64,000 bases of DNA, from positions 1,375,001-1,439,000 of the forward strand of contig NZ_AP014836.1 of NCBI RefSeq assembly GCF_002356115.1, read 5' to 3'. The notes beneath the pieces were generated by a model. The model saw only the letters and a list, made by a program, of their open reading frames with translations. It made no database searches and was not told where the DNA came from. The stretch's first letter is position 1. Each line of letters opens with the position of its first letter. Made by a program: the position numbers and the translations under genes. Shown here in pieces: positions 467 through 11,285 of this stretch. The stretch is from Candidatus Nitrosoglobus terrae (GTDB lineage: Bacteria > Pseudomonadota > Gammaproteobacteria > Nitrosococcales > Nitrosococcaceae).

Positions 467-2281
467 TTATCCCATATAAGCAATAGCAGCACGGGTATAT
501 TCTAGTAGGGTTTTATTGTCTGTAGGATTAAAATGCAAGCCAATTGTTTGAGGAAGTACAGGGGTTTCCCCTGTCAGCCGATACTCTTTTGCCACGCTAT
601 TTAGTAACCTCCCTTTATCTTGGTGTGCGAACAATATAAATAATACTTTTGTAAGTGAACGGCTTAGTTTCTTATTCTCATCTAATTGATGGATATTCAA
701 TAGGTATTTCAAAGTTAAACTATCAAAATCATACTCTTCTACGGATTGTTGGTCTTTATACTTTGCATCTAAAATTAAAATTAAAGAAGCTGACCACCAC
801 GGAGAGGATATTTTTATAATAAAATCTGGGCAAATATGATAATGCCCATATTTTTTTGAACCATTATTATTAGAGATATTAATTAAATCACCGCTCGCAT
901 TCATATCATTTAGCGAAAAAATCTTAGGCTCATAGTAGAGATCTATCGTTTTATCTTCATAACTAAATGAATAAAAATTATTGACAGCCCCTTCCGGAGC
1001 TTTAGATTTCTTACCGCCAAATGGATACTTTTCGAATGGGCTATATGCTCTATACGCTCTACCGACTTCCTTTGCATTAAATTCTGTCGTTATCATCTTA
1101 TATAAACTAACCAGTACCACTATCTCGTAGATAATGGCTAAATTCTTCAACCCTAATAGTAATTCGCTTCCAACTATTTTGGGTGAAGGTGATTTTAGGC
1201 ATCTTGTGATTAATGAAAACATTTCCCTATAATGAAAATGCCTATTCACGTATGGCGTAAATCTCGGGTATATGTTTTTAATTACTTTGCTGGGGAGTAT
1301 TTTATTAAATAGATGGTGTATTTCTTTTAGTTTTTGTTGCAGGGTATCAATCTCTCGTACTTTATATTGCAATGTAATATTCATATACCCAGACATAGTA
1401 TGATCAAAGCGGACATAATCGCTTTCTCTACTCTGGGGGATATCCTGTTTATATTTTGAATATTCTCGCTTTAAATGGTTTAAAAACTCCGCTGCCTGCA
1501 GCAAAAACGAATTGATGACCCTATTCTCGTAAGTATCGGTATCTTCAAGTATTATTTCCTTTGGCACCAACGGGAGTGAATACCCCCGATTGTTATAAAA
1601 AATATTAATACCCTCATCATTACAAGGTGATATTTTATCTAAGTTAGAAAGTACCCAATAGATTGAGTCAATACCCGTTGGCTGGCCGCTCTCAGATAAC
1701 ATCATATCTGTTTTCCAAACATGCTTATGCTCTCTAGAGAATAAAGAGATATGCTCTCTTAAGAACTCGACTGTTTCTTTAATCAAGTTATATTTATTAA
1801 AATTAAACTTTTCATTATCAGAATAATCTCCTTTTATATGACTTCTTGAAAAACAAATCGCTACAGCATCCTCCACTTTAGAGGTTAAATAATCTAGCAT
1901 TTGTTTTGCAAACGTTGCATTCTCCTTTCTCGCTAAAACATTAAATCTTAATTTAATCTGCCTTTCAGTGTCATTCTCAAAACCAAGGGTAATTTCGCTT
2001 TCACCAAAAAAATTATAAAAATACCTAGACTCAGCTGAGCCAATATCTTTAGAGGTTTTGAATATAATTTCATTTTCAGCATCACTTTCACGATTGAGTT
2101 CAATCGGTATATCACCAATGATTAATACCGGTGCCCCAAGCTTAGCTAAGCTGTCCTCAGTATCCTCATTGATTTTAATAGTAAATAACAACCTACCTGT
2201 TTCCTTAACCTCTATTGGTGGCATGCCTGCTCTTAATTCAATGGGATTATCATTATCAATCTTTAGCCACCAGCTAATCAT
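467..2281 (-). CDS. McrC-like DUF2357 nuclease subunit of a McrBC-type restriction system
   Basis: This is a 604-residue protein. The N-terminal two thirds resemble DUF2357, the beta-rich and helical arm of McrC relatives. The C-terminal third carries a PD-(D/E)xK nuclease signature, CPD at about 484-486 and DAKYK at 505-509. In the McrBC family this subunit is both the DNA- or RNA-cutting nuclease and the activator of the partner ATPase. Its ATG overlaps the stop of the upstream McrB-like gene by four bases (ATGA, 2278-2281), so the two are translationally coupled. Family and active-site motif are read directly; the target (modified DNA, or RNA as proposed for coiled-coil McrBC relatives) is inference. 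No disruption is seen. Confidence 0.8.
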   Translation of the reverse strand: MISWWLKIDNDNPIELRAGMPPIEVKETGRLLFTIKINEDTEDSLAKLGAPVLIIGDIPIELNRESDAENEIIFKTSKDIGSAESRYFYNFFGESEITLGFENDTERQIKLRFNVLARKENATFAKQMLDYLTSKVEDAVAICFSRSHIKGDYSDNEKFNFNKYNLIKETVEFLREHISLFSREHKHVWKTDMMLSESGQPTGIDSIYWVLSNLDKISPCNDEGINIFYNNRGYSLPLVPKEIILEDTDTYENRVINSFLLQAAEFLNHLKREYSKYKQDIPQSRESDYVRFDHTMSGYMNITLQYKVREIDTLQQKLKEIHHLFNKILPSKVIKNIYPRFTPYVNRHFHYREMFSLITRCLKSPSPKIVGSELLLGLKNLAIIYEIVVLVSLYKMITTEFNAKEVGRAYRAYSPFEKYPFGGKKSKAPEGAVNNFYSFSYEDKTIDLYYEPKIFSLNDMNASGDLINISNNNGSKKYGHYHICPDFIIKISSPWWSASLILILDAKYKDQQSVEEYDFDSLTLKYLLNIHQLDENKKLSRSLTKVLFILFAHQDKGRLLNSVAKEYRLTGETPVLPQTIGLHFNPTDNKTLLEYTRAAIAYMG

Positions 2282-4332
2282 AACAATCCATATCCAAACA
2301 TATTCTGGCTATCATAGCTCATGAGTCTTTTAAGCTGTTTTTTAGATATTTCCATCTCATCTGGCAGCGCTTGATCTAAAGCCTCCAATCTTTTTTTAAA
2401 TCCACCTCCATAGCCATTTAATAAGGGAATAACATGCTGAGAGATTGCGTAATCTAGGGCGGTATAATGACCACCCACCATAGAGTGGGCAACATTACAA
2501 TAAGCGCGAATGAATTTTATTTTTCTAGGAGAGATATTAATTGGATGGCCAAGCGCTAAATTATCCTCTCTTAATGTTCTCCTTATTGCTTCTAGCACGG
2601 ATTCAATATCCTGGGGCATCATTTCCAAAGGGTTGGGGCGAAAAATCTCAATAAACCTGTTCCCGCTGATAGCTTCTACTTGTTGTTCTTTTGGTTGTTC
2701 TTTCGTGTTCCATTCCAGTACATTTAATTCATCATCTGGCTCAAATTCATCAAAATTTATTATTGCAGCCCTATCTAGTAAACGGGGAGTTAACGTTTGA
2801 ACTGATTCGTCTTGATTCAGTGTTCCTAAAAACCTCAGATACTGCGGGATCTGTAAATAAGGTTCCTCGGGGTTCCCAGTGGTCAGCGCTCTTTTAGATT
2901 CGGGATCGGCCATTTCCAAGAATGGGCTAAAATAATGTTCTGGCTGCGATAGGTTAAATTCATCCAGTAATATTATGGATAGGGCACCCTCTATTTTTTC
3001 CTTATGTTCATTATGTTCATTATGTTCCTTATGTAGAAACTGTAATAATTCAAATAATCCTGATGATGCGCTTGTATAACTTTGAGATAAGGCATTATAA
3101 AATCCTAATATATCCCGATATGAAGTCCATCCACGGGCAACGGGAATATTTAAAAATCTATTACCTAACCCTAAACTGATACCCAGCATTTTTGCTAAAG
3201 AGGTTTTACCCATACCCGGTAGGCCGCTAAAGAGCGTAAATTGGCATTGGGCAATGGTGATTAACAGGTTGGCGATAAAATAATAATCGAGTTTTCTTCC
3301 TTGGCTATTGAGGGAATCTAATACACTATTGATTAATTCTTCTCTAGTATCTTCCAGGCTTTCATTAGAATTGGTCCTTACCTTAACCCCATAATCTAAA
3401 GATTTAAGCGCTGGTTTAGGGCTTAGCCCACAGAGCGCATCTACCTCTGGTTTTAACTTAACTAATTTAGCAATCAGCTCGTGATTTTCTTTATTTAACT
3501 CGTCTTTAACTTTTTTTACTTGCTTCTCCATTTCCTCCTTTCTACGCAAGAAGCCATCTCGTTCATCTTCTAACTTTTTAATTTTATTCTTTAATTCATG
3601 AATAGTTTTATATGAGTCATGCTTTTCTTCTAGTTTATCTAACTTATTTTGTTTATCGGCAATACTTTGGGTTATATTTTTCTCTTCTTCGGTTAGGGCT
3701 GAAACCCGTGAGGGGTTATTTGTTTCCAATTCATCTCGTTCCCTAGATTTTTTTATAATATCTAACTTTAATTCCTCTTTTTCTTGTTTAAATTTTTCGA
3801 TTTCTTCGCGTTCTTTTTTAGAATTTTCCTTCAGCCCTTCAAGATATGATTGCTTTTCCGCTTTAAAATAACGCTCTTTGTTTTCCTCAATATATTTATT
3901 TAAAATTTTTTCCCCTTTTGGGCTTGAAAAGAAATTATCCAATAATTCTGTACGAGTATTCCCCCACTGCCCTGCATTGTCTAAGCATTCAAAGAACCGC
4001 TCAAATCTGTCAGGGAATCTCTCATAGTCTGGTATAGAGGAATAATGTTTCTTTATCTGATCAATAGTACTTTTACTAAAATTTTTTATTTCAGAGTTTG
4101 AGGCAATTTTCTTACCATAGGTGGAAATGAGCTGCTCATCAGATATAAAGTCGATAAAATTATTATCTTTACGGTCTATAATTGTTTTTACATTGCCTAA
4201 AAACACTGTGCCTTGTGTTTTATTTTCAGCAATGAAGCTTTTTATTTTTGCTTTATTTATTTTAGCAATATGAAATTTTGGAATATCACTTGGTGTGTCT
4301 ATGCTTTTTAGCGTTAACGTATATTGATTCAA
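2278..4332 (-). CDS. McrB-like AAA+ NTPase with long N-terminal coiled coil
   Basis: This 684-residue protein has an N-terminal globular part (about 1-150), a strongly charged heptad-rich coiled coil (about 160-290) and a C-terminal AAA+ motor. The motor shows Walker A GLPGMGKT at 370-377, Walker B LLDEFN around 455-460, the McrB-type N-x-x-D element in TLNQDES (506-509) and an arginine-finger candidate in TPRLLDRA. That N-x-x-D element is a hallmark of McrB GTPases, so GTP rather than ATP is likely. The gene lies directly upstream of the DUF2357 nuclease with a four-base overlap. The coiled coil in place of a normal reader domain recalls the CoCoNuT subclass of type IV restriction systems. 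A HNE tripeptide repeat (about 438-443) sits between Walker A and B. Specific target: unknown. Confidence 0.8.
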   Translation of the reverse strand: MNQYTLTLKSIDTPSDIPKFHIAKINKAKIKSFIAENKTQGTVFLGNVKTIIDRKDNNFIDFISDEQLISTYGKKIASNSEIKNFSKSTIDQIKKHYSSIPDYERFPDRFERFFECLDNAGQWGNTRTELLDNFFSSPKGEKILNKYIEENKERYFKAEKQSYLEGLKENSKKEREEIEKFKQEKEELKLDIIKKSRERDELETNNPSRVSALTEEEKNITQSIADKQNKLDKLEEKHDSYKTIHELKNKIKKLEDERDGFLRRKEEMEKQVKKVKDELNKENHELIAKLVKLKPEVDALCGLSPKPALKSLDYGVKVRTNSNESLEDTREELINSVLDSLNSQGRKLDYYFIANLLITIAQCQFTLFSGLPGMGKTSLAKMLGISLGLGNRFLNIPVARGWTSYRDILGFYNALSQSYTSASSGLFELLQFLHKEHNEHNEHKEKIEGALSIILLDEFNLSQPEHYFSPFLEMADPESKRALTTGNPEEPYLQIPQYLRFLGTLNQDESVQTLTPRLLDRAAIINFDEFEPDDELNVLEWNTKEQPKEQQVEAISGNRFIEIFRPNPLEMMPQDIESVLEAIRRTLREDNLALGHPINISPRKIKFIRAYCNVAHSMVGGHYTALDYAISQHVIPLLNGYGGGFKKRLEALDQALPDEMEISKKQLKRLMSYDSQNMFGYGLL
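3002..3028. repeat. Three tandem 9-bp units inside the McrB-like gene
   Basis: TTATGTTCA is repeated twice and followed by TTATGTTCC and a partial TTATG. The unit is a multiple of three, so copy-number change keeps frame and adds or removes a three-residue His-Asn/Lys-Glu block between Walker A and Walker B of the AAA+ domain. No spacers, so not a CRISPR. Confidence 0.85.
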
Positions 4333-6822: not shown

Positions 6823-7188
6823 CTAGATAGAATTTCTATCTTCGGTAAGTCGTTGCTCTAAGGCTTGGCTTAATTGTTCAACTGCTGATCCCATAATAAG
6901 ACCCGCATGCATATGATAAAAACACAGCTCACATTTTACCGGCTCATGAAGACCCTGGCGTTCAACCATAGCAAAAGATCGCCACGCGAGAATTAACCGA
7001 TCTTCATGGCAACTATCTACGCATAGCCACACTTGATTATCTAAAATAACCTCAAGTCCACGATGCTCCGGTAGTGCAACCCGCAGAGGACTCCCCAGCC
7101 GCCGTAATGCCAAACGTACTCGATTAAAATCAGCTGCATCAATCGTTTTTGATATGACTCGAAGGGGCGATACCTCATCGGATATCAT
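6823..7188 (-). CDS. Unrecognised cysteine/histidine-rich protein, last gene of the RuBisCO operon
   Basis: I do not recognise this 121-residue family. It has no signal peptide or transmembrane helix and looks cytosolic. The middle holds a cluster of possible metal ligands: C and CH in WLCVDSCHEDR (about 54-60), then CELCFYHMH with a C-x2-C and two His (about 88-96). It begins 28 bases after the cbbX stop on the same strand, so it is very likely co-transcribed with cbbL-cbbS-cbbX. That position suggests a RuBisCO assembly, repair or redox-sensing accessory factor, but this is inference from location only. An alternative is an unrelated gene trapped at the operon end. Confidence 0.65.
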   Translation of the reverse strand: MISDEVSPLRVISKTIDAADFNRVRLALRRLGSPLRVALPEHRGLEVILDNQVWLCVDSCHEDRLILAWRSFAMVERQGLHEPVKCELCFYHMHAGLIMGSAVEQLSQALEQRLTEDRNSI

Positions 7189-7216: not shown

Positions 7217-8164
7217 TTAATTTCTCAGATGATCATCTGGCGTACCTTCCAGAAATACGCGACTTGCTCGAATATCTTCAGCTTCTATTGTAATTAAATC
7301 AAGCTGGGTAAGCTTCTTTCCGCGGGATGCAAAAAGCCGATTTGCCTGACGAAGACGTGCTCGATCTAGGGCATTACGAATAGATCTGGCGTTAGCAAAA
7401 TGGGTAAGTTTCATGCGCTGTGGAATATACTCAACAAATGCTTGTTCTCCGGTGGTACTAAAACGGTAGTTCTGGCTTGCTAGCATCAGTTTAGCAATAG
7501 CCATCAGTTCTCCCGATGAGTAATCTGGAAAATCCAGATGATGGGCAATACGTGACCTCATGCCAGGATTACTCATAAAAAACCGATCCATCTTGTCTTT
7601 GTAGCCCGCTAAAATTACCACTAAGTCATCCCGATTATTTTCCATCACCTGTAACAGGATTTCAATTGATTCTTGGCCATAATCCCGTTCGTTCTCAGGC
7701 TTATAAAGATAGTAGGCTTCATCAATAAATAGCACCCCCCCCATAGCTTTTTTGATAACTTCTTTTGTTTTAGGGGCGGTATGACCAATATACTGACCCA
7801 CTAAGTCATCGCGGGTTACCGTCACTAAGTGGCCTTCTCGCACATAACCCAGTCTTTTTAAGATCTCACCCATCCGCAATGCGACAGTGGTTTTACCCGT
7901 ACCTGGATTACCCGTGAAGCTCATATGCAAAGTGGGTGTTTCAGAGGTAAGCTCAAATTGCCGACGCAGCCGATCTACCAGCAAGAGCGCTGCAATTTCA
8001 TGGATTCGAGTCTTAATCGGCTTTAAACCGATCAGCTCGCGATCCAGTTTATCAAGTACCTCTTGAATATTAGAAGATTTGAATTCCGCATCCAGATCCA
8101 CTGGCGTATCACTCTCGCAGCCCGTTTGATGCTTCATAGCGCTCCCGTTCTCAGCGTTATTCAT
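7217..8164 (-). CDS. cbbX: Red-type RuBisCO activase CbbX
   Basis: CbbX is a hexameric AAA+ ATPase that pulls on the C-terminus of the red-type RuBisCO large subunit to release inhibitory sugar phosphates; it is itself stimulated by ribulose bisphosphate. The 315-residue protein shows Walker A GNPGTGKT (85-92), the pore-loop motif YIGHTAP (about 125-131), Walker [11 protein letters not shown] (144-153) and the arginine-rich sensor region. The first 30 residues are poorly conserved. It lies 83 bases after cbbS in the cbbL-cbbS-cbbX order typical of form IC loci. Its presence confirms the red-type assignment of the enzyme. Confidence 0.96.
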
Positions 8165-8247
8165 GATATCTACTCCTTTAATATCATAAAGTAAGTAACG
8201 GGCCTTACTTAAAAGACCCGCTACCCCTCATTTCACTTTATATGGTA

Positions 8248-8682
8248 TTAATACCGCTCGCCTTCTGGCTTCTCTGTAGCATAGCTACGTACAGTATAGC
8301 GTACGCGTCGCCCATCGATTTCTTGCCGCTCCAGCCCAAACCCAGGCTCGTTTTTAGGGCGATTGACAATAAACGACATAGCTGGGGACTCAGTACCCCG
8401 TACACTGCTATACGCCGTTACCCGAACATAATGGTTAGAGAACGTTTTACGGCACTCATTGATTTCCATCAAAATACCAGCGGGATCTTTCAAATCAAAC
8501 ATTGGAATGCCAAACATTTCCCAATAGGTATTACGTGGATGGGGGTCGTCTGTATACTCCACATTCACGGCCCAGCTATTCTTTAGCGCATATTTAACTT
8601 GAGCTAAAATTTGCTCATCCGTCAAATCAGGCAGAAAAGAGAACTGCCCTTGCGTTAGACGGTTTCCAGGGTTAGTCATCAT
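8248..8682 (-). CDS. cbbS: RuBisCO small subunit, red type
   Basis: This is the small subunit of the L8S8 RuBisCO that fixes CO2 in the Calvin cycle. The 144-residue length and the C-terminal extension from about residue 110 ([17 protein letters not shown]) fit the red-type subunits, whose C-terminal beta-hairpins fill the central solvent channel; green-type subunits are shorter there. Core features include [12 protein letters not shown] and the NTYWEMFG-type segment. It follows cbbL by 25 bases and precedes cbbX. Two Met codons open the gene (MMTNPG); either could be used. Confidence 0.96.
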
Positions 8683-8707: not shown

Positions 8708-10189
<1,482 letters not shown>

Positions 10190-10261: not shown

Positions 10262-10325
10262 ATCTATCATGATAAGTCAGTTAATAATATTAGATTTTTC
10301 ATATGATAATGATAGATTATTATCT
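10262..10325. promoter_or_regulatory. Likely CbbR operator and cbb promoter region
   Basis: Between cbbL and cbbR the sequence is full of LysR-type dyads. TATCATGATA (10265-10274) is a perfect 10-bp palindrome. TAATATTA lies at 10285-10292. ATAAT-N5-ATTAT (10306-10320) is a classic T-N11-A box. The reverse strand also gives a T-N-A, seven bases, T-N-A match around 10261-10273, the pattern described for CbbR sites. Their position between divergent cbbL and cbbR is that expected for autoregulated control. A possible -10 for cbbL (TAGAAT, reverse strand) is at 10218-10223. Confidence 0.55.
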
Positions 10326-11285
10326 ATGATGAAAGATAAAGAACTACAACTTGCACGTCATGCAACTCTCCGGCAGTTGCAAATCTTTGAGGCTATGGTT
10401 CGTCACAACAGCTTTCGGAAAGCTGCTGAGGAGTTATTTCTTACCCAACCCACTGTGTCTATTCAAATCAAAAAACTTAGCGAAGCTATCGGGTTACCCC
10501 TATTTGAGCAGATTGGAAAAAAAATACATTTAACCCCCTCTGGTAGAGCGCTCTACAAGGTATGCTGTGAGATAATTGATTCTCTAGCTAATCTTGAAGT
10601 CGAAATTGCTGATTTAAAGGGACTTAAACAGGGGCAATTAAAATTAGCAGTGATTACTACAGCAAAATATTTTACTCCCCGTTTACTGGGTTTATTTTGC
10701 CAGCGTTATCCTGAGATCGATATCTCCTTAAAAGTCACTAACCGAGAAAAACTTCTAGAACGTATCATTCAAAATATAGATGATTTATATATCCTTGGCC
10801 GCCCACCTCAGAATTTAGCCATGATGTTTCGGCCTTTTCTACCCAATCCTCTAGTCATCATCGCCCCTAGAACTCATCCTTTAGTAGGGGCAACTAATAT
10901 TTCACTCCAGAGAGTTGCTCAAGAGCGCTTTATTATCCGAGAATTAGGGTCAGGAACTCGCATAACGCTAGAGCAACTTTTTCAGCGAAACGGCTTGGAT
11001 TTAAATGTTCGCATGGAATTAGGTAGTAATGAAGCCATTAAGGAAGCTGTTGCCAGCGGCCTAGGGCTTGCTATTTTATCTCAGCATAGCCTTGCAATTG
11101 AGGGGATAACAGGACAAGTAGCAGAATTTGAACCAGTCACGACACTTGATGTGCAAGGATTCCCAATCCTACGCCATTGGTATATTGGTTACCCTACTGG
11201 TAAACAATTGTCTGTGGTAGCCCTAGCTTTTCTTGAATACCTTCAAAATGAAGGTAAACAGCTTACAGAATCACCTTACTATTGA
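10326..11285 (+). CDS. cbbR: LysR-type regulator CbbR
   Basis: LysR regulators of this subfamily activate cbb operons in response to metabolites such as RuBP, PGA or NADPH. The N-terminal winged helix reads TLRQLQIFEAMVRHNSFRKA and TQPTVSIQIKKL; the rest is the periplasmic-binding-like effector domain. I place the start at the ATG pair 10326/10329, which gives the usual short leader before TLRQL. A longer in-frame ATG at 10269 would add 19 atypical residues and lies inside a palindrome, although an AGGA upstream of it means it cannot be excluded. Divergent from cbbL, so it almost certainly controls that operon. Confidence 0.9.
   Translation: MMKDKELQLARHATLRQLQIFEAMVRHNSFRKAAEELFLTQPTVSIQIKKLSEAIGLPLFEQIGKKIHLTPSGRALYKVCCEIIDSLANLEVEIADLKGLKQGQLKLAVITTAKYFTPRLLGLFCQRYPEIDISLKVTNREKLLERIIQNIDDLYILGRPPQNLAMMFRPFLPNPLVIIAPRTHPLVGATNISLQRVAQERFIIRELGSGTRITLEQLFQRNGLDLNVRMELGSNEAIKEAVASGLGLAILSQHSLAIEGITGQVAEFEPVTTLDVQGFPILRHWYIGYPTGKQLSVVALAFLEYLQNEGKQLTESPYY

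Follow-up and report, generated by a model that had tools for sequence, protein, structure and literature searches.

Which protein is encoded by the last gene of the RuBisCO operon of Candidatus Nitrosoglobus terrae, and does it act on the enzyme whose genes precede it? The window, the whole stretch of 64,000 nucleotides that we analysed (contig NZ_AP014836.1, positions 1,375,001 to 1,439,000), carries the genes cbbL, cbbS, and cbbX in this order, followed after 28 bp by an unnamed gene that we call T (Table 1). The first-pass annotation had reported this ORF as lying 28 bases after cbbX at the end of the RuBisCO operon, and both its coordinates and the length of the gap were confirmed.

Table 1. 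Features of the RuBisCO operon in the window and of its immediate surroundings
Feature	Position	Strand	Basis
T, unnamed 121-residue protein	6823..7188	(-)	ATG-start ORF, last gene of the cbbLSX operon
cbbX, red-type RuBisCO activase (AAA+)	7217..8164	(-)	TIGR02880 at 523 bits, exceeding the cut-off
Terminator-like stem-loop, 14 pairs, between cbbS and cbbX	8193..8226	(-)	Pattern scan
cbbS, red-type RuBisCO small subunit	8248..8682	(-)	PF00101, 1e-37; full-length match to red-type small subunits
cbbL, RuBisCO large subunit	8708..10186	(-)	PF00016, 6e-134
CbbR-like LysR-type regulator, divergent	10269..11285	(+)	PF03466 and PF00126; CbbR as top NCBIfam match, under the cut-off

Judged by its sequence, the operon is a red-type (form IC) cbbLSX operon, because the alignment with red-type small subunits spans the whole of the cbbS product. 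The pattern scan found five terminator-like sites against 3.1 expected, and the hairpin between cbbS and cbbX is therefore a weak candidate; it could lower the expression of cbbX and T relative to cbbLS and may in this way determine how much RuBisCO is made relative to activase and T. T itself is a real gene under strong purifying selection. It is no chance ORF, because its homologues in four other genomes of the same family, found in the same place, keep 65-77% amino-acid identity, with pN (0.09-0.31) well below pS (0.61-0.83). Elsewhere in the window, at 467-4332 (-), a gene for an AAA+ ATPase of 684 residues with a long coiled region overlaps the gene of a 604-residue partner by 4 bp. The ATPase has a weak PADLOC match (PDC-M26A, 1.3e-22), and the pair looks like an McrBC-like two-gene set or a candidate defence pair.

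Neither the window T nor its divergent homologues gave a significant match in Pfam, NCBIfam, PHROGs, PADLOC, or the PDB sequences. The description of the gene as unassigned thus holds in these four family libraries and the PDB sequences, and no match to a known, unrelated family emerged from them. The family has no name in the libraries used, and an earlier mention in subscription journals may exist. Pfam and NCBIfam detected no AAA+ domain with Walker motifs in T, which sets it apart from the RuBisCO activases CbbX, CbbQ, and Rca. A profile of the T family, for which the window T was itself among the building sequences, recovers this protein at 1.7e-44, and the window T holds all of the family residues N22, W54, W69, F72, R77, P83, C86, and H92.

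Profile searches detected T homologues in 92 genomes out of an even sample of 369 from the same class, and in 9 out of 299 sampled across the phylum. RuBisCO large-subunit genes are present in 87 of the 92 T-carrying genomes versus 100 of the 277 without T (Fisher p ~3e-25, a value that overstates independence, since the genomes are related). The five T genomes without detected RuBisCO include incomplete metagenome-assembled genomes (MAGs); one of these, G362, has a contig that begins at cbbS-Q-O-T. The link between T and RuBisCO is strong, and the scatter of homologues without any connection to cbb genes that the first-pass annotation had named as the opposite outcome was not what we found.

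The neighbourhoods of T, comprising 123 T genes in 116 regions in which genes were called by a simple ORF routine and some contigs are short, show two main arrangements: cbbL-cbbS-cbbX-T and cbbL-cbbS-(104-residue ORF)-cbbQ-cbbO-T. The gene upstream of T is cbbO in 40 cases and cbbX in 15, and 76 of the 123 T genes lie within 1 kb of cbbL, cbbS, cbbX, cbbQ, or cbbO; these counts include related species, and operons can travel as blocks, so that the linkage events are not independent. A scan of named genomes placed T downstream of cbbX in all 42 loci, directly or after one small ORF, in Nitrosomonas, Thiobacillus, Chromatiaceae, and one Hyphomicrobiaceae MAG; five of the 42 carry one extra ORF of 107 residues between cbbX and T. 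The question whether homologues always stand beside form IC cbbLSX therefore receives a divided answer: the 42 named loci conform to this pattern, whereas many other homologues follow cbbO, and about a fifth (31 of 165 copies) lie away from cbb genes on the DNA seen.

The activases CbbX and CbbQO arose by convergent evolution (PMC4660213). Since T is linked to both, with red-type and form IA RuBisCOs that are distant from each other, a shared client is indicated. Red and green form I RuBisCOs and their activases are very different, yet both systems meet inhibition by sugar phosphates (PMC5437159).

Some further genes recur in these operons. The 104-residue protein, usually encoded between cbbS and cbbQ in cbbLSQO operons, has no name and no match in Pfam or NCBIfam; it carries the motif GGMT..GKIIRDAWVFG..PE.ETC.GW. 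It is encoded at L052:10640-10951 (-) and in 42 further copies (e.g., L055:7548-8033, L059:7584-7943, and L069:11891-12208), and of the 43, 25 are no more than 350 bp from cbbS or cbbQ and 13 are within the same distance of T. A search of the window's genome, run without a positive control, did not return it. The unnamed 107-residue ORF that some operons carry between cbbX and T has a shared VGWA motif and an acidic tail (L205:5135-5455, L194:5627-5947, L197:5411-5731, L202:5622-5942, and L206:456-776 (+)). Behind T there is often a gene for a class II fructose-bisphosphate aldolase with a C-terminal Dabb (A/B barrel) domain (L051:7570-8799, L050:5968-7185, and L073:5912-7156); a Dabb-type cbbA of this kind has already been listed for A. 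ferrooxidans (PMC2942843).

In a tree of 165 T domains and 119 columns, which leaves many forks without resolution, the distinction between CbbX-linked and CbbO-linked copies amounts to one change, and the CbbX-linked copies fall into one group of 62 rows (SH-aLRT 97). Genomes with both operons carry one T of each type (e.g., L132 and L050). This single change and the presence of both types in two-operon genomes argue, at the level of sequence, that T follows its own RuBisCO and activase system. RuBisCO form and activase type go together, and the tree cannot separate the two.

As to the function of T, we see about an even chance that it is a small RuBisCO accessory protein which acts on the holoenzyme of its own operon together with the activase of that operon, CbbX in the window and CbbQO in many relatives. 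It would bind the cognate L8S8 enzyme via a surface around W54, W69, F72, R77, C86, and H92, and could serve as an adaptor or holding factor that aids the activase in recognising or remodelling inhibited active sites; alternatively, it might protect RuBisCO that has been remodelled. The first-pass annotation had proposed a new RuBisCO accessory factor, which agrees with the tight tie to RuBisCO loci and the lack of a library name, while the mechanism is one that we infer. Most likely, T binds the holoenzyme and helps in its repair, with help in assembly as the main rival, because it follows both activases, specialises with each of them, and can join a small-subunit-like domain. With CbbX and CbbQO it has in common the operons and the presumed client, the cognate RuBisCO; unlike them, it has neither an AAA+ nor a VWA domain, and a sequence relation to either was not detected, even though it follows both.

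Against a role in activation stands the finding that T comes after only 16 of the 35 cbbX genes and, among 67 CbbO genes close to the query, after only 31, although it lies within 2.6 kb of 41 of these 67. Among more divergent CbbO genes, which likely include carboxysomal and form II sets, only 2 of 31 have T after them. Because about half of the comparable operons are without it, T is accessory and not essential to activation in general. Moreover, the published CbbX and CbbQO activases are active in vitro without T (PMC4660213, PMC8718961), so that T would act as a modulator or be required in certain lineages. We propose more tentatively that T may be a third component common to two RuBisCO repair systems, which the unrelated CbbX and CbbQO recruit and which can dock on the holoenzyme, in one lineage via a small-subunit-like domain of its own.

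That domain was found in a homologue of 229 residues (L144:3787-4473), encoded directly after cbbO, in which an N-terminal small-subunit-like domain is followed by T. The domain matches PF00101 at 5e-8, above the curated cut-off, and red-type RbcS chains at 6e-7. The fusion was seen in a single MAG, on a contig that begins at cbbS-cbbQ-cbbO, and a search of its family, that of G362 (four genomes), returned no second fusion of a small subunit with T. Apparent CbbX-T fusions at L127 and L151 were rejected, their N-terminal parts being out-of-frame reads over cbbX. Small-subunit-like domains also occur in CcmM and in a cyanobacterial activase homologue, and RuBisCO binding has been studied there (PMC7059596). 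The L144 homologue resembles these proteins in bearing such a domain; its domain is N-terminal, whereas theirs stands at the C-terminus of unrelated proteins, and the window T has none.

A fusion of this kind would also suit a factor that works on the L8 core, and it is one of the points in favour of the main rival, by which T would be a RuBisCO assembly chaperone like Raf1, RbcX, or acRAF, holding folded large subunits or L8 cores until they are joined by small subunits and standing last in the operon only by chance of gene order. The tight linkage of T to RuBisCO fits this as well, and so does the top-ranked structural hit of the predicted models. AF2 models of the window T (pLDDT 95.2) and of a CbbO-linked T (pLDDT 93.0), two divergent members, show the same small α/β fold, which consists of a strand, a helix, five strands, and a long C-terminal helix. 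Foldseek gave no match to the PDB for either model at E up to 0.001. In the structural comparison, the F1-ATPase assembly chaperone Atp11 (2p4f) ranked first for both, with Z of 6.5 and 6.8 and rmsd of 4.1 and 3.8 over 104-110 aligned residues, about two units of Z above the next row, yet short of the Z of 7-8 that is common even for models with no clear match. The aligned residues are only 6-9% identical, and Pfam scans did not list the Atp11 profile, either for four homologues (E up to 10) or for the window T (E up to 1). We regard the likeness in fold as a lead only.

Raf1, RbcX, and acRAF are, like T, small RuBisCO accessory proteins without catalytic motifs. In contrast to this general resemblance, neither the window T nor any of 13 divergent homologues had a Pfam match to Raf1, RbcX, or acRAF/PCD-like chaperones, and T is found with both red-type and form IA RuBisCOs. 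The red-type enzyme is regarded as able to assemble by itself, with no need of assembly chaperones, and this speaks for activation rather than assembly as the task that T would have with both. The operons that do without T count against an assembly chaperone, too, and on balance we find this explanation doubtful.

Appreciably less probable is a general regulator of the Calvin cycle that senses metabolites or binds different enzymes of the cycle, for which the RuBisCO-linked clades would simply be the commonest location. Distant paralogues of T form a distinct group of 23 rows (SH-aLRT 99). Their genes lie close to cbb genes or precede suhB-like and Calvin-cycle genes (L101, L102, and L106; also L147 and L154-L164); at L101 and L102 they precede suhB and other genes of the Calvin cycle, with no RuBisCO. 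This group would suit such a regulator, as might 'hyp3' beside suhB in the cbb3 operon of A. ferrooxidans (PMC2942843). In the main family, however, the link is to the gene of the activase itself, and the family tree tracks the type of activase.

The first-pass annotation had described T as rich in Cys and His, with C, CH, C-x2-C, and H-x-H clusters. The residues are indeed present in the window T (C56, C60-H61, C86-x2-C89, and H92-x-H94), but "rich" is a generous term for 4 Cys and 5 His in 121 residues, and most of them are not conserved. W54 and W69 are the same in all 142 main-family homologues, and N22, F72, R77, P83, C86 (99%), and H92 (95%) are each found in more than 90%, followed by H81 (78%) and C56 (64%). 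C60, H61, C89, and H94 vary among the same 142 proteins and are lineage-specific, so that no C-x2-C pair persists. A multi-ligand metal site is unlikely on account of this variation; where a zinc knuckle or a similar Cys/His site has at least 3-4 conserved ligands, only C86 and H92 are near-invariant in the 142 homologues. That T senses redox state or metals and tunes the activase or RuBisCO via Cys and His, as the note had also suggested, is highly improbable despite the conservation of C86 and H92 and, more loosely, of H81 and C56, because most residues of the noted clusters are not conserved and the distant paralogues often replace C86 and H92 while keeping N22, W69, and R77. The near-invariance of C86 leaves a weaker, thiol-based role of T possible.

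Expression data exist for what is probably a member of the family. The gene order of the window recurs in a genome that we take to be that of Nitrosococcus oceani (G001, loci L004 and L090). In N. oceani, Noc0330, which occupies the same place after cbbX as T, is listed as 'Hyp, associated with RuBisCO operon' and was upregulated 17.6-fold with ammonium and 19.1-fold with hydroxylamine versus starved cells, like CbbX, CbbS, and CbbL (PMC3772326). The identification of Noc0330 as T is putative and rests on the gene order and its position after cbbX.

Absent from Pfam, the T family would escape surveys based on this library, such as PMC7895386. Activation and assembly of RuBisCO limit the transfer of efficient RuBisCOs to new hosts, and T, which follows two non-homologous activases, may be a missing factor for the RuBisCOs of nitrifiers and sulfur oxidisers.
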